This document shows, piece by piece, positions 16,371-33,031 of a stretch of 64,000 bases of DNA. This DNA is from Beijerinckiaceae bacterium (lineage in GTDB: Bacteria; Pseudomonadota; Alphaproteobacteria; Rhizobiales; Beijerinckiaceae), in the NCBI GenBank assembly GCA_004564215.1, contig CP024846.1, positions 2,232,001 to 2,296,000 on the forward strand, read 5' to 3'. Positions within the stretch are counted from its first letter, which is position 1, and each line of letters opens with the position of its first letter. The position numbers and the translations under genes were made by a program. The notes under the pieces were generated by a model. It ran no database searches and was not told where the DNA came from. It saw nothing but the letters and a program-made list of their open reading frames with translations.

Positions 16371-16466
16371 ATGAACCAATTCCGCAAAATGTGCCGCGCG
16401 GCCGCGGCGCTGATCGGTCTCAGTGTCTCCACAGCCCATGCCTCAAAGATACGAGCTTGGGTATGA
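16371..16466 (+). CDS. 31-aa ORF with signal-peptide-like sequence, coupled to cusB
   Basis: The ATG at 16371 begins a 31-codon ORF whose product is almost entirely a signal sequence (MNQFRKMCRAAAALIGLSVS, then TAHASKIRAWV). Its stop overlaps the cusB start as ATGA. It could be a real leader peptide, or the stump of an outer-membrane (CusC/TolC) gene that normally precedes cusB and has been deleted internally. No TolC-like gene is present in the operon. Confidence 0.4.
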   Translation: MNQFRKMCRAAAALIGLSVSTAHASKIRAWV

Positions 16467-17719
16467 GCAAGATCGGCTTGGCAAGCGTCACCCTCGCCGC
16501 CGTTCTGACGGCAGGCGGAGGAGGCTATTGGGTGGGATATCATCGCGTCGGGGAGCTCGGCTTTTCCCGCCTTGGCAAAGGCTTGAGCATCGCAGACCAG
16601 CCGCCAAAGGCTCAGAAACCCGAGGCTGGCAATGGCAAAGGGCGCATCCTCTATTATCGTAATCCGATGGGCCTGCCGGATACCTCGGCGGTGCCCAAGA
16701 AAGATTCGATGGAGATGGATTATATCCCGGTCCTTGAAGACGAAGACGAAGACGGCTCCATCATTAGGGTTTCACCCGGCAAGCTGCAACGCATAGGCGT
16801 GCGCTCAGAGACGGTCGCCAAACATGTGATTGTCCGACTATTGCGTGTGCCGGGTACGGTGAAACTCGACGAGCGGCGCATTTCGCTGGTTTCAACAAGG
16901 TCTGATGCCTTCATCGACCAAGTCGAAAATGTCACCACTGGCGATCGGGTCCGCAAGGGGCAGGTGCTCATGCATCTGCATTCTCCGGAAATTCTGTCGG
17001 CATCGGCTCAGTTTGTCGCCAACAGCGGGTACGAAGGCGCCCGGCGCCGTCTTGAAAATCTGAATGTTTCGGAGGAAGCGATCGCGGACATGGAGCGGAC
17101 GCATAAGGTTGCTCATTCGATCGCCTGGACCGCGCCGCGCGATGGCGTCGTACTCGAGCGCAACGCCATCGAGGGCATGAAGGCTGCTCCAGGGGACGTG
17201 CTTTTCCGCCTCGCTGATATTTCGACGGTCTGGGTCCTGGCGGATGTGCCCGAATATGATTTGGGGATGGTTCTCCCTGGCGCCTCGGTGGCTATCCGGG
17301 TGCGGAGCCTACCGGGCCGGACATTCAGCGGCCGCGTTGGCCTGGTCTATCCCCAGGTCAGCAGCGCAACGCGCACGACACGCGTGCGTGTCGAAATCGC
17401 CAACCCGGACGGCCTCTTGCTGCCGGACATGTATGCCGACGTCGAGATCGCGACCGGGGATGCCAAGCCCGTTGTGACCGTGCCCGACAGTGCCGTAATC
17501 GACACGGGTACGCGGCAGGTCGCCCTCCTCGACAAGGGCGAGGGCCGTTTCGAGCCGCGAGAGGTGAAGATCGGGCGGCGCGGCGCGGGGCTCACCGAGA
17601 TCACGGACGGCCTCGCCGAGGGCGACAAGGTTGTCGTCGCAGCGAACTTCCTGATCGATGCGGAAAGCAACCTGAAGGCGGCGCTCCGCGGACTAACGAC
17701 CGGGGAGGCCGGGCCATGA
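16463..17719 (+). CDS. cusB: CusB-like RND efflux periplasmic adaptor (Cu/Ag type)
   Basis: 418 residues from the ATG at 16463. An N-terminal membrane/signal segment (IGLASVTLAAVLTAGGGGYW) is followed by the heavy-metal-binding domain motif ILYYRNPMGLPDTS with MEMDYIPV. The barrel-sandwich hybrid and helical hairpin (DRVRKGQVLMHLHSPEIL) and the beta-barrel/MP domains (GLTEITDGLAEGDKVVVAANFLID) come next. The adaptor links the inner-membrane RND pump to an outer-membrane channel. Its stop overlaps the next gene as ATGA, so adaptor and pump are translationally coupled. A longer GTG-initiated frame from 16337 lacks a signal sequence and was rejected. Confidence 0.9.
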   Translation: MSKIGLASVTLAAVLTAGGGGYWVGYHRVGELGFSRLGKGLSIADQPPKAQKPEAGNGKGRILYYRNPMGLPDTSAVPKKDSMEMDYIPVLEDEDEDGSIIRVSPGKLQRIGVRSETVAKHVIVRLLRVPGTVKLDERRISLVSTRSDAFIDQVENVTTGDRVRKGQVLMHLHSPEILSASAQFVANSGYEGARRRLENLNVSEEAIADMERTHKVAHSIAWTAPRDGVVLERNAIEGMKAAPGDVLFRLADISTVWVLADVPEYDLGMVLPGASVAIRVRSLPGRTFSGRVGLVYPQVSSATRTTRVRVEIANPDGLLLPDMYADVEIATGDAKPVVTVPDSAVIDTGTRQVALLDKGEGRFEPREVKIGRRGAGLTEITDGLAEGDKVVVAANFLIDAESNLKAALRGLTTGEAGP

Positions 17720-20700
17720 TCGCCCGTCTCATCGCATGGTCCGCCCGCAACCTCGTCCTGATCCTTGTGGGGACCGCTTTCGCGGTCGCGGCCGGCCTCT
17801 ATGCACTCCGCACGCTCCCGCTCGACGCCATTCCAGATCTCTCGGATGTTCAGGTCATCGTCTACACTGAATTTCCAGGCCAGGCCCCGCAGGTCGTCGA
17901 GGATCAGGTCACCTACCCGCTGACCACATCCATGCTGACTGTACCCCGCTCCAAGGTGGTGCGAGGCTTCTCGTTCTTCGGCGTCTCGTTCGTCTACGTG
18001 ATCTTTGAAGATGGCACCGACCCCTATTGGGCGCGGAGCCGAGTGCTGGAATATCTCAATGCCGTGGCACAGCGCCTGCCGGTAGGAGTCACACCGGGCC
18101 TCGGACCCGATGCGACCGGCGTCGGCTGGGTCTATCAATATGCCGTCGTTGCCAAGGACATGACCTTGGCCGAATTGCGTTCGCTGCAAGACTGGGTGGT
18201 CCGCTATGCCGTCTCTAAAGCCGAGGGCGTGGCGGAGGTCGCAAGCGTCGGCGGCTTCGTCAAGCAATATAACGTCGTGGTCGACCCGGTCCGCCTACGT
18301 GCGCAGGGCATTCCTTTGTCGAAGATCCGGGATGCGGTGCGCACCAGCAATATGGATGTCGGCGGGCGTACCGTCGAACTGTCCGAGTTCGAGTTCATGG
18401 TCCGTGGCCGCGGCTACTTCAAGAACGCGGCCGATATCGAAGACATTGTGCTGAAGACCGATCAAGGCACCCCATTGCGTCTCAAGGATGTCGCGTGGGT
18501 CGAGATCGGCCCCGGCGAACGCCGCGGCATCACCGAGCTCAATGGCGAGGGTGAAGTCGCAAGCGGCATCGCGCTGCAACGGTTCGGCGCTAACGCGCTT
18601 ACGGTTATCGAGAACGTCAAGGCGCGCCTATCGGAAATAGCCGCCAGCCTGCCGAAAGGCGTCGAGATCATCCCGGTCTATGACCGTTCGCAACTCATCC
18701 AAGCCGCGATTGAAACGCTCCGCGGCACATTGACCGAGGAGAGCATCATCGTCGCGCTGGTCTGCATCGTCTTCTTGCTCCACCTGCGCAGCGCACTGGT
18801 AGCCATCCTCATGCTCCCGGTCGGCATCCTGATGGCCTTCGCCGCCATGCGGCTGATCGGGCTTGGTGCCAACATCATGAGCCTCGGCGGCATCGCCATC
18901 GCGGTCGGTGCCATGATCGATGCCGCCATCGTCATGATCGAGAACGCCCACAAGCATCTCGAACGCGCACCGAAGGACAAGCCCCGCGTCGAGGTTCTGG
19001 TGGAAGCGGCGGCCGCAGTCGGCCCGGCCTTGTTCTTCAGCCTCCTCGTCATCACGGTGTCCTTTCTGCCGATCTTTACGCTCGAGTCACAGGAGGGACG
19101 GTTGTTCGGCCCGCTCGCCTTCACGAAGACCTTCGCGATGGCCGCGGCGGCGCTGCTCTCGGTGACGCTGGTTCCAGCTTTGATGGTCGTTTTCGTGCGC
19201 GGGAAGATCATTCCGGAGCATAAGAACCCCATCAACCGGTTTCTGATCTGGATCTATCGGCCCGTCATCCGAGGTGTTCTGAAAGCGAAGGCCGCCACAA
19301 TCATCTTTGCACTCATCATCGTTGGCGTGAGCATTTGGCCGGCTCGTCAGCTCGGCTCCGAGTTCATGCCGCCCTTGAACGAGGGGACGCTCATGTATAT
19401 GCCGACAACCCTGCCGGGACTGTCGGTAACTAAGGCGGCGGAACTCCTGCAGATGCAGGATCGGATCATCAAATCCTTCCCGGAAGTCGCCTCGGTCTAC
19501 GGCAAGGCTGGGCGAGCGTTGACGGCGACCGATCCGGCCCCGACCGAAATGTCCGAGACGATCATCAACCTGAAGCCCAAGTCCGCGTGGCGACCTGGCG
19601 TCAGCGTCGACAGCCTTAGGGCGCAGATGGACAAAGCCTTGCAGTTCCCCGGTGTCTCGAACGCATGGACCATGCCGATCCGGGCACGTATCGACATGCT
19701 CTCGACCGGCATCCGCACGCCGGTCGGTGTCAAGGTCTATGGAACCGACCTTGCCGAGATGGAGAAAGTCGCGCGCCGCATCGAGGGGATCTTGAAGGCG
19801 GTGCCGGGCACCTCCAGCGTCTATGCCGAGCGGGTGATCGGGGGCTATTACCTCGATATCACGCCAGACCGCGAGGCGTTGGGACGCTATGGTCTCGCCG
19901 TTGGCGACGTGCAAGACGTGATCGCGACGGCGCTTGGTGGCGAGACCGTGACGACAACCGTCGAGGGACGCGAGCGCTATGCCGTCAATGTGCGCTATCC
20001 GCGCGAGTTGCGCAGCAATCCCCAGGCGATCGCCACCGAGGTCCAGGTGCCGCTCCCCGGCGGCGGAACCGTGCCGCTCGGCGAGGTGGCGAAGGTTCAA
20101 CTCACGCGCGGCGCGACTTCGATCCGCACCGAGAACGGCCAGCTCGCCGTATACATCTTCGTCGATATCAATGGCCGAGATCTTGGAGGCTATGTCAACG
20201 AGGCACGGCACGCGGTCGCGAACGAAGTTAAGTTGCCGCCGGGCTATTCCGTCAGTTGGAGTGGGCAGTTCGAATATTTAGAGCGGGCGAAAGCACGTTT
20301 GAAGCTCGTCGTTCCGCTCACATTGCTCATCATTTTCCTGCTGCTCTATCTCAACTTCCGCGCTCTCACCGAAACACTGATCGTCATGCTGTCACTGCCG
20401 TTCGCGTTGGTAGGTGGGATCTGGTTGATGTGGTGGCTCGGCTTCAACGTGTCGGTCGCGGTCGCGGTCGGTTTCATCGCGCTCGCCGGCGTCGCCGCCG
20501 AGACTGGCGTGGTAATGCTGATCTACCTCGATCAGGCCATGAGGGAGCTGAAGGAAGAACGGTCAGCACAGGGTCGTCCCTTTACGCGCGCAGATCTTTA
20601 CGAAGCGATCATGCGCGGCGCTGTCGAGCGGGTACGGCCGAAGATGATGACGGTCGTGGCCATCATGGCTGGCCTGGTCCCCATTCTTTGGAGCACTGGC

Positions 20701-20892
20701 GCGGGCTCTGAAATCATGCAGCGCATCGCCGTTCCAATGATCGGAGGAATGCTGTCGTCCACGGTGCTGACCCTTGTCGTGATCCCAGCCATCTATGGTC
20801 TTATCAAAGGATGGAATCTATCGGACAGGGGCACCATGGTAGAGATAGCACCCGAAGCGAGTTGGACCAGGCCCAAGGCTGCTGCCGAATAA
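17716..20892 (+). CDS. cusA: CusA-like heavy-metal efflux RND transporter
   Basis: 1058 residues, the normal length for HME-RND pumps with twelve membrane helices and two large periplasmic loops. The diagnostic segments are GAMIDAAIVMIENAHKHLE in TM4 and LDAIPDLSDVQVIVYTEFPG. The three porter-domain methionine motifs known from E. coli CusA are all present: LMYMPTTLPG, PAPTEMSETI and RIDMLSTGIRTP. This strongly suggests Cu(I)/Ag(I) rather than Zn/Co/Cd specificity. It is encoded directly after the adaptor with an ATGA overlap and followed by a small membrane peptide; no outer-membrane component gene is nearby. Confidence 0.94.
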   Translation: MIARLIAWSARNLVLILVGTAFAVAAGLYALRTLPLDAIPDLSDVQVIVYTEFPGQAPQVVEDQVTYPLTTSMLTVPRSKVVRGFSFFGVSFVYVIFEDGTDPYWARSRVLEYLNAVAQRLPVGVTPGLGPDATGVGWVYQYAVVAKDMTLAELRSLQDWVVRYAVSKAEGVAEVASVGGFVKQYNVVVDPVRLRAQGIPLSKIRDAVRTSNMDVGGRTVELSEFEFMVRGRGYFKNAADIEDIVLKTDQGTPLRLKDVAWVEIGPGERRGITELNGEGEVASGIALQRFGANALTVIENVKARLSEIAASLPKGVEIIPVYDRSQLIQAAIETLRGTLTEESIIVALVCIVFLLHLRSALVAILMLPVGILMAFAAMRLIGLGANIMSLGGIAIAVGAMIDAAIVMIENAHKHLERAPKDKPRVEVLVEAAAAVGPALFFSLLVITVSFLPIFTLESQEGRLFGPLAFTKTFAMAAAALLSVTLVPALMVVFVRGKIIPEHKNPINRFLIWIYRPVIRGVLKAKAATIIFALIIVGVSIWPARQLGSEFMPPLNEGTLMYMPTTLPGLSVTKAAELLQMQDRIIKSFPEVASVYGKAGRALTATDPAPTEMSETIINLKPKSAWRPGVSVDSLRAQMDKALQFPGVSNAWTMPIRARIDMLSTGIRTPVGVKVYGTDLAEMEKVARRIEGILKAVPGTSSVYAERVIGGYYLDITPDREALGRYGLAVGDVQDVIATALGGETVTTTVEGRERYAVNVRYPRELRSNPQAIATEVQVPLPGGGTVPLGEVAKVQLTRGATSIRTENGQLAVYIFVDINGRDLGGYVNEARHAVANEVKLPPGYSVSWSGQFEYLERAKARLKLVVPLTLLIIFLLLYLNFRALTETLIVMLSLPFALVGGIWLMWWLGFNVSVAVAVGFIALAGVAAETGVVMLIYLDQAMRELKEERSAQGRPFTRADLYEAIMRGAVERVRPKMMTVVAIMAGLVPILWSTGAGSEIMQRIAVPMIGGMLSSTVLTLVVIPAIYGLIKGWNLSDRGTMVEIAPEASWTRPKAAAE

Positions 20893-21217: not shown

Positions 21218-21514
21218 TTGCTTAACCCCCACCTATTATTATGCTTTGACTTTCCCAAACTGGTGGGCAAGCAACCTTCCAAAATCGGAATGGATTGGAG
21301 AATCTTCGTGTCTATAGCGACGCGTATATCCGGGACATTGCCGTACGTTGTGCAACGGTTATTTGACGTCGTACGCGGACCTCAAGCGCCTCGCCCTGAT
21401 AGTTCTGATCCGCGCGAGATAGACAAATTTTACCGTGAGCATTATTCCCCACGGAGAAAAATTGGCGCGTCAAATTCGGCGATGCCGATACCCCGCCTAC
21501 GTGATCCTGTTTGA
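21218..21514 (+). CDS. Uncertain small ORF in the gap between the efflux and hyf-like operons
   Basis: The 599-base gap from 21025 to 21623 contains no recognised gene. The best frame encodes up to 98 residues; an internal ATG at 21290 gives MDWRIFVSIATRISGTLPYV followed by SSDPREIDKFYREHYSP. It has a plausible composition but no good ribosome site and no recognised domain. It may be a remnant. Confidence 0.25.
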   Translation: MLNPHLLLCFDFPKLVGKQPSKIGMDWRIFVSIATRISGTLPYVVQRLFDVVRGPQAPRPDSSDPREIDKFYREHYSPRRKIGASNSAMPIPRLRDPV

Positions 21515-21623
21515 TCTTACAGTAACAAGTTGGTTGTACGGGCCGAAGGCGAAGGTGCGGGGCGGGGCATGAATCCACCGCGGCTAGTCCAGCTTGAAAA
21601 AGGCGTAATGTCGACAAATGCAC

Positions 21624-22151
21624 TCACCGGGCACGATTGTCAGTGTTCAGATTCCGAAGCAGCGCAAGTAACCCTTGTAGAATTTCAGTCGGCGATGGCG
21701 GGCAGCCTGGGATGTGGAGATCGACTGGGACGACCTCGGAGACCCCTCCTATGACGGCATAGCTGCCGGCAAAGCAGCCACCATCAAAAGCGCAGCTGCC
21801 GAGACTGACGACCCATTTGGGATTGGGAGTCGCATCGTAGGTCCGCCGTAATGCTTCGCGCATGTTTTTTGTGACTGGACCGGTGACGAGCAAGACATCG
21901 GCATGCCGCGGCGAGGCGACAAATCGCATGCCAAAACGCTCGATGTCATAGAAGGCATTGCCGAGGGCGTGAATTTCCAGCTCACAGCCGTTGCACGAAC
22001 CAGCGTCGACTTGGCGGATCGACAGACTGCGTCCGAGTTTTGCGCGGGCGGCATGGTCCAGCTTTGTCGCGAGTGCGGCAAATTCGGTGTCCGCCGGGGC
22101 CCGTTCCGTGAGGGGAGCTTTCAGCAAACCTTTGAGCAGAGTTTTTCGCAT
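21624..22151 (-). CDS. hyfI: Hydrogenase-4/complex I small subunit-like Fe-S protein (HyfI/NuoB family)
   Basis: 175 residues. The [4Fe-4S] ligands of the NuoB/hydrogenase small subunit are intact: Cys53 and Cys56 in GSCNGCELE, Cys120 in SLGSCA and Cys150 in PGCPPSP, with ADVLLVTGPVTKNM between them. In the family this cluster is the terminal electron carrier next to the catalytic or quinone site in the large subunit. It is the last gene of the minus-strand operon, nine bases after the large-subunit gene. Because the partner lacks NiFe ligands, electrons from this cluster must go somewhere other than to a NiFe site. Confidence 0.88.
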   Translation of the reverse strand: MRKTLLKGLLKAPLTERAPADTEFAALATKLDHAARAKLGRSLSIRQVDAGSCNGCELEIHALGNAFYDIERFGMRFVASPRHADVLLVTGPVTKNMREALRRTYDATPNPKWVVSLGSCAFDGGCFAGSYAVIGGVSEVVPVDLHIPGCPPSPTEILQGLLALLRNLNTDNRAR

Positions 22152-22160
22152 AGCACCGGC

Positions 22161-23705
22161 TTAAAGATCATGGCCAGAGTAGGAGCAGTTAAACGACTTG
22201 TTGCAGAGGGGGAAGTCAGCGACGATGTTCCCCTCGATCGCGGCCTCAATCAAGGGCCACTGGAACCAGGAGGGATCGCGCAAGTGGCACCGCTCGATGC
22301 GCGCATCAGAGCCAAGGCGGACCCAGGCTAAAACGTCGCCGCGAAATCCTTCGACCACGGCCAAGCCCTCACCAGAACCGCCCGTCCCGCTTACCGGGAC
22401 ACGGGTCGCCTCTTGCGCAGGAATGCGGGCGAGGATCAGTTCGACGAGCGCAAGGCTCTGGGCCACTTCACGGATGCGAATCCAGATTCGTGCATTGACA
22501 TCGCCCTCCGTGAGCAACGGCACGTCGTAATTAAAAAGCAATGCATCATATGGCGGGTAGGCGAGCTGAAGGCGGGCATCGAACGCGCGCCCCGACGCTC
22601 GGCCGACAATGCCTCCGCTGCCATACTGCTGGGCGAGGGCTGGATGCACGATTCCGGTGCCGACGGTCCGATCCTGGAGCGAGGCGGTATTGTCGTAAAG
22701 CTCGACCAGCGGAGGGAAGGCTCTGCTGACCGTTCCAACCAATTCCCGGATCTGCTCGAAGCCCCGCGATGTGAGGTCGATGCCAACCCCACCCGGCACG
22801 ATGCAGTCCATCATTAAGCGATGCCCGAAGCATGCCGCCGAAGTGCGCAGGACGCGTTCACGCAGGACCCCGCAATAGGCGTGCATCATCGCGAAAGCCG
22901 CGTCGTTGCAAATCGCGCCGATATCACCGAAGTGATTGGCGAGGCGTTCGAGTTCTGCCATCAGAGCGCGCAACCAAACGGCGCGCGGAGGAACCTCGAT
23001 ATCAAGCGCCGCCTCGACTGCGCGGGCGAAAGCAAAGGCGTAGGCGACTGTGCTATCGCCCGACGCACGTCCGGCAAGACGTGCGGCCCCATCAATGGAC
23101 GCGCCACGCATCAGGGACTCTATGCCCTTGTGGACGTAACCGAGCCGTTCTTCGAGCCGCACCACCGTCTCGCCGCTGGCGGTGAAACGGAAATGACCAG
23201 GTTCGATGATGCCCGCATGGACTGGGCCGACTGGGATTTGGTGCAAGCCCTCGCCGTCGGACGCAAGAAATTCGTAAGGGGACGCGGATTGACGTACCTC
23301 TGCCTGCCTTCCGAGCGGATGGCGCAGGCCCCAATGGCCATGGTCGAGCCACGGACGCGGATCGGGCAGTCCCATGGGCTCAAGGCCGAAAAGGTCACGA
23401 ATCGCGCGCTCCGGACGAATGGCGGGAGGATGGAGTCGCCCGACGGAGGGAAAGCTCCCCTTAGGACATTCATGGGTAACGACCGCGACCTGGGCCGCCG
23501 CATCGTCGAGAATGGCCATGTGAACCGCGCCCGTGTCTCCCCACAGGCCAAACAATGTCCATCGCCCCTCGGCAATTTGTTGCGCGAGCGATTGCCAGAG
23601 ATCGCCGTCCACGACGCGACGCGGCCATGGGCGATGGTCTGGCATGGCCCGTCCGGATTCGATGGTGTCGATCAGCAGTGGCATGTCTTGCCTCTCCGCA
23701 TTCAT
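22161..23705 (-). CDS. hyfG: Hydrogenase-4 large subunit-like protein lacking [NiFe] ligands (HyfG/NuoCD-like)
   Basis: 514 residues combining an N-terminal NuoC-like domain (about 1-140; PERAIRDLFGLEPMGLPDPR) with a NuoD/hydrogenase large-subunit domain (VGPVHAGIIEPGHFRF, EERLGYVHKGIESLM). Active group 4 hydrogenases have RxCGxC after this region; here residues 213-218 are RASGDS, both Cys replaced by Ser. The C-terminal DPCxxC is replaced by SFNCSYSGHD (residues 504-513), so the two C-terminal ligands are also gone. The protein cannot bind a normal NiFe centre. It matches the idea of energy-converting-hydrogenase-related (Ehr) complexes. The start overlaps the hyfF stop as ATGA. Confidence 0.88.
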   Translation of the reverse strand: MNAERQDMPLLIDTIESGRAMPDHRPWPRRVVDGDLWQSLAQQIAEGRWTLFGLWGDTGAVHMAILDDAAAQVAVVTHECPKGSFPSVGRLHPPAIRPERAIRDLFGLEPMGLPDPRPWLDHGHWGLRHPLGRQAEVRQSASPYEFLASDGEGLHQIPVGPVHAGIIEPGHFRFTASGETVVRLEERLGYVHKGIESLMRGASIDGAARLAGRASGDSTVAYAFAFARAVEAALDIEVPPRAVWLRALMAELERLANHFGDIGAICNDAAFAMMHAYCGVLRERVLRTSAACFGHRLMMDCIVPGGVGIDLTSRGFEQIRELVGTVSRAFPPLVELYDNTASLQDRTVGTGIVHPALAQQYGSGGIVGRASGRAFDARLQLAYPPYDALLFNYDVPLLTEGDVNARIWIRIREVAQSLALVELILARIPAQEATRVPVSGTGGSGEGLAVVEGFRGDVLAWVRLGSDARIERCHLRDPSWFQWPLIEAAIEGNIVADFPLCNKSFNCSYSGHDL

Positions 23706-25150
23706 CCGAGCAGACGAGCAACATGCTGGAACCAGGCGACCAGCGGCGGCGGCAAATAAATACCCGCCATCAGCACCAGGCTCAGGTGGGCGCCGATCGG
23801 CAGAAAGGATGCTCGCACCGGTCCGGTGCCGCCTTTCGGTGCACCGAATGCAAGTTGGTGAACCCGCAGGAAAAGCGCGCCGAAGGCGATGAGCAGACCG
23901 GCGACCAACGGCAGCGCTAGCAACGGTTCCCGCGCAAAGGTCGAGCTCACGACCAGAAACTCGCTCATGAAGATGCCGAGCGGCGGCATTCCGGCGATTG
24001 CAACGACTCCCAGGACGAGCCCCCAGCCGAGAAGCGGATGAGTGACCGTCAGGCCGCGAATGTCACTAATTTTCTGGGTTCCCTTGACCTGAGCGATGTG
24101 GCCAACAGTGAAGAAGATCGCCGATTTGGTCAGGCTGTGCATGGTCATGTGCAAAAGGCCGGCGAAATTGGCAAGCGGTCCGCCCATGCCGAAGGCGAAA
24201 ACGATAATACCCATGTGCTCGATCGACGAGTAACCGAACAAGCGCTTGATGTCGTCGCTGCGGTACAGCATGAAACCCGCAAAAATCAGCGAGCCTAGCC
24301 CCATTGTTGCCATCAGCGGCCCCGGCGCTATCGCAGCGGAATTGGCCGCGAGCAGCAGCTTGAAGCGCAACACGGCGTAGAGGGCGACGTTAAGCAGCAG
24401 GCCGGAAAGCACGGCCGAGATCGGCGTCGGACCCTCGGCATGTGCGTCCGGCAACCAGGCGTGGAGCGGGGCGAGGCCAACCTTGGTGCCGTAGCCAAGC
24501 AGCAGGAAGACAAAAGCGACATTGAGCAGCGCCGGATCGAAAGCCGATACCCGCTTGATCAGCACCGTCCAAAGCATGCCATCGAGCCCTTCGCCAACGA
24601 CCGGAGTGGCGGCCATGTAGACGAGGATCGTCCCAAACAGGGCCAACGCGATGCCGACGCTGCCCAGGATGAAATATTTCCAGGCCGCCTCGATCGCCTC
24701 GCGCGTGCGGTAGATGCCGACCATAAGCACCGTGGTTAGAGTCGCCAGTTCGATTGCCACCCACATCAGGCCGATGTTGTTGGCGACCAGTGCGAGGTTC
24801 ATCGCGAACAACAGCACCTGGTACATGGCGTGGTAGAAGCGGAGGTGAGCCGGAGTGAGGCGACCAGCCTCCAGCTCATGGGCGATGTAGCTGGCGCTGA
24901 AGACACTGGTGGTGAAGCCGACAAAATTGTTGAGAACGACGAAGACGACGTTGAGATCGTCGACCAGGAAGTAGGGGCCGGGTTCTGGCTTCCAGATGAA
25001 CAGCGATAGTGAGGCAAGGAGCGTCAGAAAAGCCGAGAGCACATTGAGTTGGGCAGACAGGCGGTAGCCGGGAAGCAGCGCGAGCAGGGCGGCGGTCACT
25101 GCCGGAATCGCCAGGATTAGCGTAACCCCATTCAAGGAAAACGTGTTCAT
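23702..25150 (-). CDS. hyfF: Hydrogenase-4 component F-like, antiporter (NuoN/M/Mrp-type) membrane subunit
   Basis: 482 residues with about 14 predicted membrane helices. Conserved features of proton-translocating antiporter-type subunits are present: the TM5 Glu in WVAIELATLTTVLMVG, TM7-8 lysine regions (GYGTKVGLAPLHAWLPDAHAEG) and HMTMHSLTKSAIFF. The LPDAH motif and KRLFGYSSIEHMGI are typical of HyfF. It probably couples electron transfer in the Fe-S/large-subunit module to H+ or Na+ movement across the inner membrane. ATGA overlaps link it to both neighbours. Confidence 0.9.
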   Translation of the reverse strand: MNTFSLNGVTLILAIPAVTAALLALLPGYRLSAQLNVLSAFLTLLASLSLFIWKPEPGPYFLVDDLNVVFVVLNNFVGFTTSVFSASYIAHELEAGRLTPAHLRFYHAMYQVLLFAMNLALVANNIGLMWVAIELATLTTVLMVGIYRTREAIEAAWKYFILGSVGIALALFGTILVYMAATPVVGEGLDGMLWTVLIKRVSAFDPALLNVAFVFLLLGYGTKVGLAPLHAWLPDAHAEGPTPISAVLSGLLLNVALYAVLRFKLLLAANSAAIAPGPLMATMGLGSLIFAGFMLYRSDDIKRLFGYSSIEHMGIIVFAFGMGGPLANFAGLLHMTMHSLTKSAIFFTVGHIAQVKGTQKISDIRGLTVTHPLLGWGLVLGVVAIAGMPPLGIFMSEFLVVSSTFAREPLLALPLVAGLLIAFGALFLRVHQLAFGAPKGGTGPVRASFLPIGAHLSLVLMAGIYLPPPLVAWFQHVARLLG

Positions 25151-25809
25151 CGGCGCTCTCCCTGGAATCGGTCGAGCGCTTCGACGTCGACGGTGTCGAA
25201 GCGCTCGCGAATGCGAAACAGGAGAGTACCAATGACGATGAAGGCAATGAGGACTGAAAAGGCGACGCTGATCTCGACCACAAGCGGCATGCCCTTGGCC
25301 CCGGTGGCGGCTAATATCAGCCCGTTTTCAAGAGACATGAAGCCGACGATCTGACTCACCGCATTGCTTCGCGTCACCATCATGAGAAGGCCGAGTAAAA
25401 TCACGGAGAGGGCAAAGGCTAGGTCCTCGCGCGCCAGCGGGTAAGCGTCAGCGGTCACCCTGAGCATCACCACCATGGAAAGCGCGACAAGCCCCATGCC
25501 CGCCAGCATTGTGGGACCGATGCTGACGACGTTCTCGACTTCCCGATGGATGCCGAGGCGAGCGATAATGCGATGCAGCGCCACAGGGATGATGATAGCC
25601 TTGAAGAAGAGGGCTATCGCGGCCGTGACATAGAGGTGCGGCGCGCCTTGCACATAAGCTTGCCACGCGACCGATAGCGCGAGAACCACGGCTTGCAACG
25701 CAAAGACGTTAAGGAGTGCGTAAAGGCGATCCTGATAGAGGAGCATAAAGCTCACGAGCACGAGGCAACCGGCGAAAAGATGAGCGACGTCGAATGCAAG
25801 ATGGCCCAT
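25147..25809 (-). CDS. hyfE: Hydrogenase-4 component E-like membrane subunit
   Basis: 220 residues from the ATG at 25809, chosen over an upstream TTG because GGAG lies eight bases before it and it starts one base after the hyfC stop. Six to seven hydrophobic helices include LFAGCLVLVSFMLLYQDRLY and a NuoK-like C-terminal half (VTRSNAVSQIVGFMSLENGL, with the family Glu). HyfE proteins resemble NuoK joined to extra helices and form part of the ion channel of group 4 complexes. The stop overlaps the hyfF start as ATGA. Confidence 0.87.
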   Translation of the reverse strand: MGHLAFDVAHLFAGCLVLVSFMLLYQDRLYALLNVFALQAVVLALSVAWQAYVQGAPHLYVTAAIALFFKAIIIPVALHRIIARLGIHREVENVVSIGPTMLAGMGLVALSMVVMLRVTADAYPLAREDLAFALSVILLGLLMMVTRSNAVSQIVGFMSLENGLILAATGAKGMPLVVEISVAFSVLIAFIVIGTLLFRIRERFDTVDVEALDRFQGERR

Positions 25810-25810
25810 C

Positions 25811-26767
25811 TCAAAGACTCCGTGACACAAACAGGAGCAGCATTCCGAGCAAGCCGAGCATCAATGCAGCGCCAAGGAATTCGGAAATTCGAAAAATGCG
25901 CATTTTGGCGACCGTCACTTCGAATAACCCCAGCAGAAAACCGCCGATCGCAAGCTTGATGATATAGGTCACGAAACCTTGCAGCGCGGCGCCAGCGCGC
26001 GCGTCGGGCGGCGCCAGGCCCCATGGGAAGAACACGCAGGCAATGAGCGACATATAGAGCAAAAGCTTCAGTGCAGCCGCGAGTTCTATTAATGCGAGAT
26101 GACGCCCTGAATACTCCAAAACCATGGCTTCATGCACCATGGTGAGTTCTAAGTGGGTCGCCGGATTGTCTACCGGAATACGAGCGTTTTCCGCGATGCC
26201 GACCATCACGAGTGCGACGAGCGCCAATCCTGCCGAAACTCGCAGACCGACTCCCGACGACAACATAAATCCGGCAAGGCTCGAAAGTTGGGTCGATCCC
26301 GCGAGCAGCGCGATGGTGAAAACGATCATTATCATCGCGGGTTCGGCAAGAGTCGCGATCATCGCCTCTCGACTCGAGCCGATGCCACCAAAGCTGGTCC
26401 CCACGTCCATTCCGGCAAGCACAAGAAAAAAGCGCGCGCTGCCGAGGAGCGCGATGATCGCGATGAGGTCGGCGGACCAGCTGAAAAGAAGGCCGGTCCC
26501 GAAAGTCGGAACGAGCGCCGCAGCCACCCAGGTCGTGGCGAAGATCAGATAAGGAGCCACGCGGAACAGCCAAGAGGCATTTTCGGCGAGAACGACTTCC
26601 TTGCGCAGGAGCCGCAGAAGGTCGCGATAGGGTTGCAGGAGCGGTGGCCCCCGGCGTCGTAAAAGGCGCGCCTTGACCTTACGCACCAAGCCGGTGAGCA
26701 GAGGCGCCAGCAGAAGCACCAGGAGCATCTGCGCATTTTGAATTGCGAGGTCAAATATCAGGGCCAC
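25811..26767 (-). CDS. hyfC: Hydrogenase-4 component C-like (NuoH-type) membrane subunit
   Basis: 318 residues from a GTG at 26767. NuoH/HycD hallmarks are present: GLVRKVKARLLRRRGPPLLQ at the N-terminus, the acidic loop VDNPATHLELTMVHEAMVLE and SGRHLALIELAAALKL. This subunit anchors the peripheral Fe-S module and lines the proton or quinone pathway. The gene overlaps the end of hyfB by ten bases and precedes hyfE by one base, so the operon is tightly packed. Confidence 0.9.
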   Translation of the reverse strand: MALIFDLAIQNAQMLLVLLLAPLLTGLVRKVKARLLRRRGPPLLQPYRDLLRLLRKEVVLAENASWLFRVAPYLIFATTWVAAALVPTFGTGLLFSWSADLIAIIALLGSARFFLVLAGMDVGTSFGGIGSSREAMIATLAEPAMIMIVFTIALLAGSTQLSSLAGFMLSSGVGLRVSAGLALVALVMVGIAENARIPVDNPATHLELTMVHEAMVLEYSGRHLALIELAAALKLLLYMSLIACVFFPWGLAPPDARAGAALQGFVTYIIKLAIGGFLLGLFEVTVAKMRIFRISEFLGAALMLGLLGMLLLFVSRSL

Positions 26768-28773
26768 AGGGCGAGCACTACCAATAGAAATACAAGGGCA
26801 CCGAAGACAATGCTAAGATAGCGGCGAATCGTCAGGAACTGGAGGTATTCGAGCTTTCCTCCTACGAACGAGACAGCAGCCGTGACTGGTGTGTAGACGA
26901 GCTCCCAGGCGGGGTCGTGCATTTCTACGTCGATCCGCGCGGGGCGCAGCTCGCCGGGCGCCGGCATTTCAACATGCTCACGAGCGCGGAAAACGAAGGT
27001 GCCGAAGACCTGTCGAATCGGCTGCGCGAAGCTGGTCGCCGTATACTGCGTCGCCGGACTAGGATCTGGAAAACCGCAGTCCCAGGCTGGGGCACGGCGG
27101 ATAGCATGTGATGCCAGACGGTGAATGACGTAGGCCGCTAAAGAAGCCGAGGCGGCGATAAACAGGAAAACGAGAAGGCCATTATACGAACTGCGACTTT
27201 CTGCAATCGGTACGATCGAAAGCCATTTTATGCTCTCTTGCGTCGGCATCCGGGCGCTGGTGACCGCTTGAACAACGGATCCGATGCCGTCGATCACGAA
27301 ACCGGGTACGATACCGGCAATGACACAGAGAGCGGCGAGTCCGGCCATCGCGCCGAGCGACCAACGATCGATCTCGACAGCGCGTTCTGCGGCTAATGTG
27401 CGGGGCCGCCCGAGGAAGACGACACCGAATGCTCGAGCGAAGCACGCCGCTGCGAGCGCCGCCGATAAGGCTATCAGCGCGCCGACGGCGGGAACCAGGA
27501 GCTTCAACCCCCAGTGTGGAAGCTGGGGGCTTAATAGGATTGCCTGGAATAGCAGCCATTCGGAGACGAACCCATTCAGCGGAGGTAACGCCGAAATGGC
27601 GGCACAGGCCACCAGAAAGATAAAGCTCGTGACCGGCATGTGGTGGATGAGACCGCCGAGGCGGTCCATCTGCCGCTCACCAGTCGCCGTGAGTACGGCC
27701 CCCGCTCCGAAAAACAGGACGCTCTTAAAGAGCATGTGATTGAGGACGTGGAACAGTGCTGCCGTCAGCGCGAGGGCGCCTGCGGCACGCAAGCCGGCCG
27801 CGTCGAAGGCGAGAGCAAGACCGAGGCCGACGAAGATGAGGCCGATGTTCTCGATCGTGCTGTATGCGAGGACGCGCTTGAGATCCGTCTGCATCAGCGC
27901 GTAGAGAATGCCCATCACCGCAGTTCCACCCCCGGCGGCCAGGACAGGGACTCCCCACCACCAGGCCGGCGGACCAAGGAGGTCGAAGACGATGCGAATG
28001 AAGCCGTAGATTGCGACCTTGGTCATCACACCGCTCATCAGCGCCGAGACATGGCTCGGTGCGGCAGGATGAGCGAGCGGCAGCCAAACGTGGAGCGGCA
28101 CGAGACCCGCCTTCGATCCCGTGCCAAGAAGAACGAGACCGAGCAAAACTCCCGCCCACAGCGGGGATCGACTTTGGATTCGCATCGCATCGAAGGCATA
28201 ATTGCCATCGGGGCCAGCCAGAAGTCCGAACGCGAGTAGAAGTGCCAGGGTACCGAGGCTTGCCATGACGATATACACATAGCCCGCGCGGACGTTGTCC
28301 TCTTCGCGATGGTGCGCCATCACCAGCGCCCAAGAGGCGAGCGACATGAATTCCCACGACCACAGGAAGGTGAAAGCGTCATCTGCCAGAACTACCAAAT
28401 TCATCCCCGCAAGGAATGCCGGGAAAAACGGCAGCACACGCTGCGGCTCGGCCTCGTGCCGACCGTAGCCAATGCCGTAGAGACTTGCTGCCGCGCCCCC
28501 CAGATTAATAACGAGGAGAAAGAACGCAGCAAGCGCATCCAATCGGAAATGGGCGCCGAGCCAAGGCAATCCGAGCGGCAGCGTCAAATTCAAAGTTACA
28601 AAAGTGCCGCCAACAAAGTGGACCAGGACAGCGGTGAAAAGCAGGGCCGAGCTTGCCGACGCCGCACTGTAAATGATGGGCGTCGCCCTGTTCGTTCGGA
28701 CAATGGCGACAGCCAGCACGGCTGTTGCCAACTGTGCGGCGATCAACCACATGAGGAACGCCATGACCGACAT
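26758..28773 (-). CDS. hyfB: Hydrogenase-4 component B-like antiporter membrane subunit
   Basis: About 671 residues. The antiporter core (about 100-450) carries FLWSWEFMSLASWALVMAHH, LGTGSKAGLVPLHVWLPLAH, AYSTIENIGLIFVGLGLA and HVLNHMLFKSVLFFGAG. A long C-terminal extension with a DCGFPDPSPATQYTATSFAQP motif and a final helix is typical of HyfB/HycC. It is the first structural gene of the operon. The ATG at 28773 overlaps the XRE regulator stop (TGATG); a GTG one codon earlier also fits. It is a second ion-translocating subunit beside HyfF. The HyfD antiporter and the HyfA/HyfH ferredoxin subunits are absent. Confidence 0.9.
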   Translation of the reverse strand: MSVMAFLMWLIAAQLATAVLAVAIVRTNRATPIIYSAASASSALLFTAVLVHFVGGTFVTLNLTLPLGLPWLGAHFRLDALAAFFLLVINLGGAAASLYGIGYGRHEAEPQRVLPFFPAFLAGMNLVVLADDAFTFLWSWEFMSLASWALVMAHHREEDNVRAGYVYIVMASLGTLALLLAFGLLAGPDGNYAFDAMRIQSRSPLWAGVLLGLVLLGTGSKAGLVPLHVWLPLAHPAAPSHVSALMSGVMTKVAIYGFIRIVFDLLGPPAWWWGVPVLAAGGGTAVMGILYALMQTDLKRVLAYSTIENIGLIFVGLGLALAFDAAGLRAAGALALTAALFHVLNHMLFKSVLFFGAGAVLTATGERQMDRLGGLIHHMPVTSFIFLVACAAISALPPLNGFVSEWLLFQAILLSPQLPHWGLKLLVPAVGALIALSAALAAACFARAFGVVFLGRPRTLAAERAVEIDRWSLGAMAGLAALCVIAGIVPGFVIDGIGSVVQAVTSARMPTQESIKWLSIVPIAESRSSYNGLLVFLFIAASASLAAYVIHRLASHAIRRAPAWDCGFPDPSPATQYTATSFAQPIRQVFGTFVFRAREHVEMPAPGELRPARIDVEMHDPAWELVYTPVTAAVSFVGGKLEYLQFLTIRRYLSIVFGALVFLLVVLALWP

Positions 28774-29114
28774 CACGCGCGCGCCCGAATACCACGCGCG
28801 GCTTCCGCAGCCAGCTTATTTCCATGGTAAGGCTTGCGGCTATCGAACTCGCTTTTCAGCCGTACTCCCCGCCCACCAGATGGGCTGACCGTGCCCTCGT
28901 TGATGAGCTCGATGCCAGCGGCATCCAGGGCTGCAACAAGTTTCATCAGCGAGTCTACATTGCCGCGAATCACCGCTTCGCTGGCCTCCATGCGCTGGAT
29001 CGTTGGCACCGACAAGCCGGACATCTCCGCGAGTGCCCGTTGGTCTATGCAAAGAAGGGCTCTCGCGGCCCGTAGCTGTGTAGCGGTGATCACCGTCTGG
29101 CCATCCACTATCAT
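28773..29114 (-). CDS. XRE-family helix-turn-helix regulator leading the hyf-like operon
   Basis: 113 residues from the ATG at 29114 (MIVDGQTVITATQLRAARAL). The Cro/CI helix-turn-helix is LRAARALLCIDQRALAEMSGLSVPTIQRMEAS, followed by LMKLVAALDAAGIELI and a short C-terminus typical of small alphaproteobacterial XRE regulators (GRGVRLK). A GTG at 29141 is also in frame but would precede the predicted transcription start, so I prefer 29114. The stop overlaps the hyfB start, which makes the regulator the translationally coupled first gene of the operon and suggests autoregulation. Confidence 0.82.
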   Translation of the reverse strand: MIVDGQTVITATQLRAARALLCIDQRALAEMSGLSVPTIQRMEASEAVIRGNVDSLMKLVAALDAAGIELINEGTVSPSGGRGVRLKSEFDSRKPYHGNKLAAEAARGIRARA

Positions 29115-29120
29115 TGAAAC

Positions 29121-29131
29121 AATATGATATT
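29121..29131. promoter_or_regulatory. Candidate operator palindrome downstream of the XRE promoter
   Basis: AATATGATATT is a perfect 11-bp palindrome lying between the predicted -10 and the ATG at 29114. It is well placed for repression by the XRE protein; binding is inference. Confidence 0.4.
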
Positions 29132-29141
29132 TTAGCTTCAC

Positions 29142-29169
29142 AGAATAATAATTGAGCTGTCAATGTCAA
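29142..29169 (-). promoter_or_regulatory. Candidate sigma-70 promoter of the XRE-hyf operon
   Basis: On the minus strand a TTGACA (29169-29164) is followed after 16 bases by TATTCT (29147-29142), placing the transcription start near 29135. A second TTGACA lies in tandem six bases downstream. The region is AT-rich compared with its surroundings. Confidence 0.55.
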
Positions 29170-29186
29170 CTTGTGATGTATAAATT

Positions 29187-29198
29187 ATCAATATTGAT
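29187..29198. promoter_or_regulatory. Candidate operator palindrome upstream of the XRE promoter
   Basis: ATCAATATTGAT is a perfect 12-bp palindrome about 18 bases upstream of the -35. It shares the AATAT core with the site at 29121, as expected for two half-related operators. Confidence 0.4.
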
Positions 29199-29334: not shown

Positions 29335-29369
29335 AGCCCCTGGTTTGACGTCCAGGGAAACCAGGGGCT
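29335..29369 (-). terminator. Strong hairpin followed by a T tract on the minus strand
   Basis: AGCCCCTGGTTT and AAACCAGGGGCT form a perfect 12-bp stem around an 11-base loop. On the minus strand the stem is followed by ACTTTTT, as in an intrinsic terminator. It lies about 320 bases downstream of the YqhA gene. The rest of 29199-29687 shows no gene I can support; one minus-strand frame (29188-29436) encodes a short PAAENDN-containing protein that spans the hairpin and is doubtful. Confidence 0.6.
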
Positions 29370-29687: not shown

Positions 29688-30215
29688 TTAATGATCCTTG
29701 GGCGCGCCCCCACTGCTCACGCGGTCAGCGATTGCCAGCAAGAGCGTGGCAACTGCAAAGGCGATCAGGATGCCGACTACCCAGGCGAGTTTGGCGGTGT
29801 CGGCCTGTTTGTCGATGTGCATGAACCATTCCAGCACGTTGACCGACGTTATCGCCACGATTGAGCCGAGCAGCTTCTGCTTCAAGCCGGAAAATCCTAT
29901 CTTGATCAATCCATCCGGCCAGTTAGGATGGTCCGTCGCGTTGATCGGTCTCACAAAATTCTCATAACTCGAGCAGATCACAATTAAGATGAGGTTGGCG
30001 GTAAGGGAGAGATCGATGAGGCTGAGGATGCCGACGATCACCTCTGAATCGTGGGCCGCGCTCACTTGCGATACGAATTCGGCGAGCTTGACGACAAACT
30101 TATAAAGCAGCCCAGCCAATCCAACGACGAGCCCGAAAAGAAACGGCGCCACCAACCAGCGGCTGTTGAAGATGATCGCCTCGATGCCACGTTCTATTCG
30201 GTTCATGTCCGCCAT
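29688..30215 (-). CDS. YqhA/UPF0114 family membrane protein
   Basis: 175 residues with four predicted helices (WLVAPFLFGLVVGLAGLLYK, VGILSLIDLSLTANLILIVI, LGSIVAITSVNVLEWFMHI, VVGILIAFAVATLLLAIAD). The internal motif SSYENFVRP with HPNWPDGLIKIGFSGLKQKL identifies UPF0114. These are inner-membrane proteins of unclear biochemical role. Two ATGs nine bases apart (30215 and 30206) share a GAGGAA upstream. It forms a single-gene minus-strand unit within the accessory region. Confidence 0.88.
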   Translation of the reverse strand: MADMNRIERGIEAIIFNSRWLVAPFLFGLVVGLAGLLYKFVVKLAEFVSQVSAAHDSEVIVGILSLIDLSLTANLILIVICSSYENFVRPINATDHPNWPDGLIKIGFSGLKQKLLGSIVAITSVNVLEWFMHIDKQADTAKLAWVVGILIAFAVATLLLAIADRVSSGGAPKDH

Positions 30216-31942: not shown

Positions 31943-33031
31943 ATGTCTCTTCGTCTGCCCGCCTTTCTGCTGGCGTCTGCTCTTAGTGTGGGCGCGTCGC
32001 CCATGATGGGATCGGTCGGTCGATCGTCTTACGAAAATATGATTATTTCAATTGCGCGGGCCGAATCACCGGCGCAAAGCCCCGCCGCGCGGGCTAAATC
32101 AGCGGTGCAATCCCTCATCACCCGCCTGCGCGGCCGCAGGATGCCGGAGGGGATCGTGAAATCGAACGGCCGCATCGAAGCCACGCAGGTCGACGTTGCG
32201 GCAAAATACGCGGGCCGGATTGCGACGATGACGGTGGAGGAGGGCGACGAGGTCACGGCTGGACAGGTCGTCGCCACCATCTCATCGCCGGAATATGAAG
32301 CCCAGCTCAGAGGTGCGCAGGCCCAGGTGCTGCGCGCCAAACAGGCATTGGCGGAATCTGTTGCGCTCATCGCCCAGCGCAACAGCGATTTGACCTTCGC
32401 CAGAACCGACTTGGAACGCGGCAAGAGCCTGTTGGAGCGGGGGAATATTACCCAGCAGGTTGTCGATCAGCGACGTAACAAGTTCGAAGCGGCCGATGCC
32501 GCATATCTTGCGGCCACCGCCCAGCGCGATCAGGCCCAATTCGCAATCAAGGCGGCCGAGGCCGATGTCGAACGACTCGAGTCGATTCTGGTTGATCTGG
32601 TGCTCGTTTCCCCGAGGAGCGGACGCGTGCAATACAGGCTCGCCCGCGCCGGCGAGGTGGTCGCCGCGGGCCAGCGCGTTCTGACAATCCTTGACCTGAA
32701 CGATGTCTATATGACGATCTACCTTCCAGCCGATGATGCAGGAAAGCTCGCTCTCGGCGACGAGGCTCGCATCATTGCCGACCCCATTCCAGAATATGTC
32801 ATCCCCGCGACAGTCAGCTTCGTCGCGACCGATGCGCAGTTCACGCCAAAGAGCGTCGAAACTGCCGAGGAGCGTCAGAAACTGATGTTTCGTGTCAAGC
32901 TCCAGGTGGATCCCAAGGTTCTGGGAAAATACCACCGGCAGGTGAAGACGGGCGTCCGCGGCATCGGCTTCGCTCGCACCGATCCCTCGATCGCATGGCC
33001 GGATGATCTCGTGGTGAAGCTTCCAGAATGA
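31943..33031 (+). CDS. HlyD-family membrane-fusion/adaptor protein of an ABC exporter
   Basis: 362 residues with an N-terminal hydrophobic segment (LPAFLLASALSVGASPMMG). The lipoyl/barrel halves are VDVAAKYAGRIATMTVEEGD and VSPRSGRVQYRLARAGEV, and they flank a coiled-coil hairpin (about 110-215). This is the YhiI/YbhG type that pairs with RbbA-like or YbhFSR ABC exporters. A GAGGAC site precedes the ATG. The stop overlaps the next gene as ATGA, so the adaptor, ATPase and permease form one operon. The substrate is unknown; drug, metal or envelope stress roles are known for relatives. Confidence 0.9.
   Translation: MSLRLPAFLLASALSVGASPMMGSVGRSSYENMIISIARAESPAQSPAARAKSAVQSLITRLRGRRMPEGIVKSNGRIEATQVDVAAKYAGRIATMTVEEGDEVTAGQVVATISSPEYEAQLRGAQAQVLRAKQALAESVALIAQRNSDLTFARTDLERGKSLLERGNITQQVVDQRRNKFEAADAAYLAATAQRDQAQFAIKAAEADVERLESILVDLVLVSPRSGRVQYRLARAGEVVAAGQRVLTILDLNDVYMTIYLPADDAGKLALGDEARIIADPIPEYVIPATVSFVATDAQFTPKSVETAEERQKLMFRVKLQVDPKVLGKYHRQVKTGVRGIGFARTDPSIAWPDDLVVKLPE

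Follow-up and report, generated by a model that had tools for sequence, protein, structure and literature searches.

What does a membrane-bound relative of hydrogenase-4 do once its large subunit has lost every ligand of the NiFe centre? The question is raised by an operon in a stretch of 64,000 nucleotides from a Beijerinckiaceae bacterium (hereafter the window; contig CP024846.1, positions 2,232,001 to 2,296,000), where six open reading frames (ORFs) on the minus strand, at window positions 21624-28776, overlap or almost abut and are homologues of HyfB, C, E, F, G and I. The product of the locus is a hydrogenase-related (Ehr) complex of known but unexplained kind, which has six subunits, sits in the membrane and is kin to the Hyf/formate hydrogenlyase (FHL) branch of the complex I superfamily. 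New here are a map of residues that speaks against the chemistry of hydrogenases and of complex I alike, and an overlooked regulatory link: the XRE-type regulator gene and palindromic operator at the head of the operon are common to operons of SulP anion transporters. With slightly better than even confidence we read the complex as ion-translocating, with a rebuilt site that is not that of a hydrogenase and probably not that of a quinone reductase, and as serving the same response as anion transport by SulP.

An operon of the Ehr family

Pfam and NCBIfam models match five of the ORFs as HyfB, NuoH, HyfF, NuoC plus NuoD/hydrogenase large subunit, and NuoB; the sixth matches HyfE at 84 bits, under the model cut-off of 136. 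These matches and the ORF positions confirm the six-gene operon proposed in the initial annotation. Like other Ehr operons, it encodes a group 4-like large subunit without the four NiFe cysteines, a small subunit, and NuoL-like and HyfE-like membrane subunits.

Excerpts of four papers present Ehr as a group 4 hydrogenase relative without metal ligands and without an established role (PMC6349859, PMC10284858, PMC7894505, PMC10432482); published excerpts report it from Nitrospira, Geobacter, ammonia-oxidising archaea and others, and for Geobacter Ehr PMC7894505 cites Coppi and colleagues. The systems described there (Geobacter EhrA/C/L/S, comammox Nitrospira, Margulisbacteria; PMC7894505, PMC10284858, PMC6349859) resemble the window by description, having the same kind of large subunit, HyfE-like and NuoL-like membrane subunits and a small subunit, with a role only proposed or without assignment. 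The excerpts are silent on any connection with XRE or SulP; the window operon has an XRE gene of its own.

Among solved structures the closest matches are E. coli FHL (7z0s; 188 bits for the large and 135 bits for the small subunit) and then the membrane-bound hydrogenase MBH, followed by complex I and MBS. With E. coli hydrogenase-4/FHL-2 (HyfABCDEFGHIJ) the window shares the order B-C-E-F-G-I, the subunit families and the membrane charges, but it lacks HyfA, D, H and J and a C-terminal extension of the large subunit, has Ser-Ser-Ser-Gly for the four ligand cysteines and Asn in the HycE D529 column, and has two E-channel glutamates changed. With complex I (NuoB/CD/H/L/M) it shares the homologous core, the N2-type cluster site and the antiporter Lys and Glu residues, but has no NADH module or NuoI nearby and no quinone histidine, and its canopy aspartate is Asn. 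The large and small subunits are also related by sequence to those of archaeal MBS/Mbx (PDB 6u8y), which is farther from the window HyfG than HycE is (78 versus 188 bits). The window operon has no NuoI-like gene of the MBS/Mbx type. MBS/Mbx, a NiFe-free group 4 relative, is a sulfane sulfur reductase, with sulfane sulfur or ferredoxin:NADP activity as the mark of the group, and MBS has a NuoI-like and several Mrp-like subunits. In the M. tuberculosis Rv0081-Rv0087 'formate hydrogenlyase' locus, genes of these six families presumably likewise occur next to one for a regulator.

In a maximum-likelihood tree built from 49 large subunits, a long branch with 100/100 support divides 43 Ehr rows (relatives found here, not the named Ehr of Geobacter or Nitrospira) from NuoCD and the five rows of HycE, HyfG and Hyf, which supports the suggested kinship with Ehr. 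The window groups with Methylocapsa, which is also the nearest named HyfG relative among the matches listed (76%) and by itself points to a probable host in the Beijerinckiaceae, and 14 of the 15 rows of a second clade (B) fall together. Bootstraps are unsettled in both this tree and the regulator tree described below. Ehr is spread patchily: of 60 genomes sampled from the window's family, nine, counting the window, match at E <1e-60, eight of them at Ehr score level, and the other sampled member of the window's genus has no Ehr match at E <1e-60. In a class sample 32 of 385 genomes have an Ehr match at E <1e-100, and in a phylum sample 62 of 398 have a match of at least 427 bits.

Ligand columns and pocket of the large subunit

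The large subunit HyfG/EhrL (22161-23705, minus strand) was aligned with E. coli MG1655 HycE, HyfG and NuoCD as anchors. HycE C241, C244, C531 and C534 align with window S215, S218, S508 and G511; HycE, HyfG and three further Hyf proteins have CCCC in the four columns, whereas the window and most of the 43 Ehr rows have SSSG. Over 157 Ehr rows (the window and 156 relatives, partly non-independent since some genomes are in both collections: L027/L119, L072/L151, L037/L157) the columns hold Ser in 154, Ser in 144, Ser in 152 and Gly in 157, with Cys left in two rows at the first column and in two at the second. The loss of all four NiFe cysteines noted at first thus holds in nearly all rows of the family. 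The RxCGxC and DPCxxC ligand motifs of [NiFe] group 4 are absent from the window HyfG, and so is the C-terminal peptide for protease maturation, HyfG stopping at the motif.

The same alignment has no equivalent cysteines at shifted positions. Cys507 of the window's SFNCSYSGHD, a candidate ligand, falls on the Pro column of DPCxxC and is Cys in 138 of 157 rows; as replacement ligands we also rejected C266, which is common to HycE (146/157), and C501, which is variable (131/157). No new four-cysteine site was seen in the large subunit across the 157 aligned rows. A second large-subunit gene, which could have supplied a NiFe site, does exist: the window genome, a single 3.3 Mb contig, encodes a single NiFe hydrogenase large subunit elsewhere, at 240 kb (G000:C1:239844-241406), 2.0 Mb from the Ehr operon, and seemingly with its own small subunit (by eye, a small-subunit gene and a HypD gene lie beside it, locus L182). 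The genome also has one complex I NuoD, at 2683 kb.

Around the former metal site, the canopy aspartate column (HycE D529; window N506) is Asn in all 157 rows, the canopy arginine column (HycE R478) is kept in all 157, and 155 rows have Asn at the third canopy position (HycE S283). In the beta1-beta2 loop, HycE E193 is kept in 156 rows and the adjoining column, His in NuoCD, is Ile in 156 (window I167). D217, an Asp without counterpart in HycE or NuoCD, is invariant in 157 of 157. The quinone-site histidine and canopy aspartate of complex I are thus both replaced in the window (I167, N506). According to excerpts of one paper, the canopy aspartate appears strictly conserved, and in complex I mutating either residue of the canopy pair impairs quinone reduction (PMC9474812).

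These residues bear on the idea that Ehr is a stripped-down complex I, in which electrons of a soluble donor would travel by way of the HyfI cluster and reduce a quinone bound in a cavity of HyfG and HyfC, with proton pumping. The large subunit does score better with NuoD models than with hydrogenase models, the HyfI cluster and the pump residues are retained, and Asn at the third canopy position corresponds to NDUFS2 N185 (in the same excerpts; PMC9474812). We nevertheless consider it unlikely: besides the replaced histidine and canopy aspartate, an SGDS-type motif stands in place of NuoCD IEYLGG, the HycE-type GPxHxxxxEPGHF loop persists, and the tree places Ehr apart from NuoCD (a single, long-branched row). 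The initial annotation had proposed an ion-translocating redox complex using a quinone or a soluble protein. The analysis bears out the NiFe loss, the Ehr kinship and an ion-translocating membrane arm; a quinone as acceptor is weakened by the Ile and Asn columns.

Electron entry and the search for a redox partner

The small subunit HyfI/EhrS (21624-22151, minus strand) retains the four [4Fe-4S] cysteines, C53, C56, C120 and C150, as had been noted; no row deviates at these positions, either among 79 or among 145. Genes that might feed this cluster were sought in stretches around the 157 Ehr loci, with a median of 4.3 kb upstream of hyfB and 8.7 kb downstream of hyfI.

The absence of HyfD, HyfH and HyfA, also reported at first, is a family trait. 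The gap between hyfC and hyfE is at most 150 bp in 139 of 143 Ehr loci versus about 1.46 kb in two Hyf controls, and the gap between hyfG and hyfI is under 350 bp in 150 of 152 versus 730-828 bp in three Hyf controls; there is therefore no space for HyfD (139/143) or HyfH (150/152), and the HyfH ferredoxin subunit that [NiFe] group 4 has between G and I is missing. In the two G-I exceptions (L144, L154) hyfI is divergent and upstream of hyfB, and an acetyltransferase-like gene (by eye) is in its usual place. Two clade B loci (L087, 5756-6353; L098, 6121-6711; turned coordinates) have about 590 bases between hyfC and hyfE with no called gene.

E. coli queries gave the same picture. HyfH matches near 1 of 157 Ehr loci versus 3 of 3 Hyf controls, and a protein with two CxxCxxCxxxC motifs is called near 1 of 157 versus 2 of 3. 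An FdhF-like match lies near one locus (L080), which also has the sole HycB match; NuoE, NuoF, NuoG and HyfA match in the flanking stretches of none of the 157, and a NuoI-like gene lies near at most one. In the Hyf controls the HyfA, HycB and HyfH queries match in 3 of 3. A conserved redox partner adjoining the operon was thus found neither by grouping the neighbours of the 157 loci nor by these queries; farther genes are possible. The remark in the initial annotation that the partner is not obvious is right as to a redox partner, each query matching near no more than one of the 157 loci, but misses a regulatory one, the XRE gene that ties the operon to SulP.

Electrons could instead come from a distantly encoded ferredoxin or formate dehydrogenase, making Ehr a formate- or ferredoxin-linked pump of the sort suggested for Margulisbacteria and Geobacter. 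A formate dehydrogenase-Ehr system is proposed in an excerpt of PMC6349859, and in one of PMC7894505 Ehr subunits are more abundant on formate than in hydrogen-containing conditions. The near absence of FdhF, HycB, HyfH, NuoE, NuoF, NuoG and HyfA from Ehr loci counts against such a pump, subject to the same proviso about farther genes, and we regard it as rather unlikely.

Membrane arm

The antiporter columns are those of key residues of NuoL, NuoM and NuoN. HyfB, an antiporter-like membrane subunit (26758-28776; this and the next three genes are all on the minus strand), retains E142, K222, K253 and E406, which are kept in 134, 133, 132 and 133 of 134 rows. In HyfF, the second antiporter-like subunit (23702-25150), E134, K223 and E397 are retained and kept in 145, 144 and 144 of 145 rows; N254 sits at the position of NuoM K265, where E. 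coli HyfF likewise has N. The membrane subunit HyfE is encoded at 25147-25830, the likelier start being the ATG at 25809. In a Hyphomicrobium genome two hyfB-type genes stand in tandem (L077:2859-6945, regulator to hyfC).

HyfC, the NuoH/HycD-like membrane anchor (25811-26767), keeps R112, E134, E142, E193, E207 and E213, and the HycD R108, E130, E138, E189, E203 and E206 columns are kept in 136-139 of 139 rows. Two E-channel glutamates are replaced: the HycD E201 column is His in 136 of 139 Ehr rows (window H205) and the E199 column is Ala, Thr or Ser in 129 (window A203). A106 replaces HycD Y102. An excerpt of PMC9474812 reports that mutation of HycD E199/E201/E203 lowers in vivo H2 production by 99%. 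The pocket and the channel mouth are thus altered together, with much of the proton wiring left in place.

A complex with neither a cofactor ligand nor an encoded electron-entry subunit, two antiporter-like subunits that keep their charged residues, and a link to anion transport might not be an oxidoreductase at all: its cluster could be structural and Ehr only a multi-subunit ion antiporter, working close to Mrp. The invariant cluster cysteines, and pocket residues invariant in up to 157 of 157 rows, seem beyond the needs of a mere scaffold, and we hold this to be very improbable.

The XRE regulator and its operator

The first gene of the operon encodes an XRE-type helix-turn-helix regulator (28773-29141, minus strand) and overlaps hyfB by four bases; alignment with relatives suggests the GTG at 29093 as its true start. 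Ahead of it lies a consensus match to a sigma-70-like promoter, TTGACA-16-TATTCT (29142-29169, minus strand); the scan gave two consensus matches in the scanned kilobase versus 0.7 expected. A few bases upstream of the -35 box is an operator-like palindrome, TGATAATTTATACATCA (29174-29190, minus strand), with two mismatches to TGATGTNNNNNACATCA. An XRE relative lies near 62 of 80 named Ehr loci, mostly just upstream of hyfB; of the 18 loci without one, 16 end before the hyfB start.

Relatives of the regulator also stand before another kind of gene. An order sample of 41 genomes has seven strong matches, the window included; the other six lie before a SulP gene (L171, L173, L174, L175), before Ehr (L172) or convergent at the end of an Ehr operon (L170). 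The class sample of 385 genomes has 41 matches in 38 genomes, 40 of at least 114 bits and one at 76, and orthologues were defined by this score gap; the window regulator scores 154 bits. Eleven of the 40 orthologues are directly upstream of hyfB and 26 directly before SulP (25 of the 28 strong loci fetched from the class sample, plus L174), one is beside neither (L185) and two are at contig ends. All 29 regulator-SulP loci measured (25 from the class sample, 4 from that of the order) have SulP downstream of the regulator, at a distance of 4-151 bases and in the same orientation. Seven weaker paralogues (53-76 bits) adjoin neither Ehr nor SulP in the stretch examined (0/7). A regulator tree of 73 rows implies seven to eight changes of partner, at least two of them forced by well supported branches; the tree rests on 82 columns and is poorly resolved.

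The commonest gapped palindromes upstream of regulators are versions of TGATGT-N5-ACATCA, the exact form occurring 18 times among 111 upstream regions, of which 11 belong to Ehr loci and seven to others. With at most two mismatches the operator stands before 39 of the 66 regulators at Ehr loci and 23 of the 26 at SulP loci (cleaned counts), versus 1.5% of 1520 and 1.1% of 640 shuffled controls, and none of 50 loci without a regulator (47 Ehr, 3 Hyf). The window, its regulator above the score gap and its operator with two mismatches, belongs to this XRE group shared with SulP. With one mismatch the window genome has six sites, versus one for the reversed pattern; the window's own operator is not among the six. 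One perfect site (G000:C1:2551856-2551872; L212:1501-1517) lies inside a 601-residue sulfatase-like ORF and is therefore probably due to chance.

Other genes recur beside these regulators. At L185 (298-4239) the regulator, with neither SulP nor Ehr as neighbour, is about 1.1 kb upstream of succinate dehydrogenase-like genes. A methyltransferase related to that of L185 (a weak spermidine-synthase match) recurs at L170, L184, L208, L007, L159, L087, L093, L130 and L160, adjoining regulator-Ehr and regulator-SulP loci, in several cases divergent from the regulator, and lying also near clade B Ehr. In a few loci DUF1275 proteins recur near both regulator-Ehr and regulator-SulP operons, and at L007, L159, L005 and L012 second XRE copies, with operators of 0-1 mismatches, are near DUF1275 membrane proteins a few kb from Ehr.

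SulP genes at Ehr loci

SulP is also found beside Ehr itself, at 11 of 157 Ehr loci: nine from Competibacteraceae, L047 and L117. In the nine it is downstream of hyfI (in L059 about 2.8 kb off); in L047 it is between the regulator and hyfB, and in L117, from the window's family, 34 bases before hyfB. Pfam confirms SulP at L171, L173, L174, L175, L117, L047 and L040. The Competibacter-type SulP is 38-47% and the L117 SulP 26-31% identical to regulator-linked SulPs, so different SulP branches are involved. In NCBIfam, the model for DauA, a C4-dicarboxylate transporter, accepts the SulP of the Competibacter type (L040) above cut-off; it is also the best-scoring model for the regulator-linked SulP of L171, yet below cut-off. 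The best solved relatives are 6ki1 (BicA) for L174 and 5da0 for L040. At L171 a carbonic anhydrase gene is divergent to the regulator-SulP pair; it has no match in the other 41 loci of the set.

SulP is present in 211 of 385 class-sample genomes. Ehr and regulator-linked SulP co-occur in 6 of 32 genomes versus 20 of 353 (one-sided Fisher p 0.014), and without the 11 regulator-Ehr genomes in 6 of 21 (p 0.0017); in both counts three of the six are of one genus, so the co-occurrence is weak. Regulator-Ehr genomes do not significantly avoid SulP (4/11 versus 207/374, p 0.23). Replacement of SulP by Ehr at the same site was rejected: of six pairs compared, five share the regulator stretch only and one nothing. 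The titles and abstract openings listed from the open-access literature hold no joint report of Ehr and SulP.

Other features of the locus

Neighbourhood genes were called by a codon-usage caller. Directly 3' of hyfI is a short ORF (21312-21623, minus strand), unsure as a gene, with an RLFQAG motif at its start and no Pfam match at E 0.1. A similar start directly follows hyfI in 11 of 81 loci (the window, L005, L012, L018, L022, L027, L043, L049, L053, L064 and L066); the proteins are then quite different, and the window ORF is short.

Upstream of the operon is a gene for a UPF0114/YqhA-family membrane protein (29688-30215, minus strand). It was rejected as an Ehr partner, a relative lying near none of 80 relatives and none of 37 further Ehr loci, and a terminator-like hairpin (29337-29358) separating it from the operon. 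The flanks are ordinary, with a CusB-type membrane fusion protein and an AcrB-type pump (16463-20892) and an HlyD-type protein (31943-33031).

Proposed function

In the reading that we favour, a soluble low-potential donor would reach the HyfI cluster directly, and the pocket of S215, D217, S218, R455, N506 and S508 would serve a proton relay or act on a small substrate, polar or anionic, rather than on H2 or quinone. Turnover would be coupled to movement of H+ or Na+ via HyfB, HyfF and HyfC. The XRE regulator would control its own operon, and a single response related to anions or pH would have Ehr and SulP as its outputs, jointly or as alternatives.

Several observations weigh against this reading. 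The predicted structure is poor at the site (AlphaFold; residues 134-193 and 490-514 have a predicted local distance difference test score below 50), so the pocket is drawn from sequence alone. The HycD Y102 column, at the far end of the E-channel, is Ala or Gly in 139 of 139 rows, so the channel is only partly retained. SulP genes are missing from the window genome and from 7 of 11 genomes with regulator and Ehr (list read by eye); SulP is therefore not an obligate partner. No SulP accompanies Ehr at L055 and L062, both from Competibacteraceae, in the stretch examined. At 15 clade B loci an XRE-cupin gene takes the first place instead (a call checked with Pfam for L166 alone), and in at least nine others of the clade no XRE gene is called there. 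A few regulator copies, in rhizobia, precede DUF1275 genes, and the regulator is therefore not exclusive to Ehr and SulP. Finally, the regulator-less Ehr operons L144, L147, L152 and L154 have no operator, though the same genomes have a regulator-SulP operon, so control of Ehr in trans is not supported.

Some of these observations would fit a mobile regulatory cassette, the XRE gene and operator being shuffled before unrelated operons without a common function: DUF1275 genes as further partners, a window genome without SulP, no operators in trans, and a transporter as common as SulP. Its weak points are that 37 of 38 judgeable orthologues precede only Ehr or SulP, that changes between these partners recur on the regulator tree, and that L117 has SulP beside Ehr without the XRE regulator. 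We think a cassette possible, on balance somewhat unlikely. With no SulP in the window genome, no operators in trans and weak co-occurrence, the link is one of a common switch and not of a common complex.

A bolder and doubtful version of the favoured reading makes Ehr an energised anion or inorganic-carbon/pH device, in which the former NiFe pocket would have turned into one of oxyanion type (Ser, Ser, Ser, Asn, Arg), coupled via the changed E-channel to ion pumping, and which would act as a non-homologous stand-in for SulP under one XRE regulator. If so, it would be a third way of putting complex I-like membrane parts to anion or CO2 handling, the other two being cyanobacterial NDH-1 CO2 uptake and DAB-type systems. 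The residue map flags N506, D217, S215/S218 and HyfC H205, and the common regulator and operator name a specific, testable pair of cue and response for the widespread Ehr family. Should the anion/pH reading be true, the hydrogenase scaffold would be reusable without metal or quinone.

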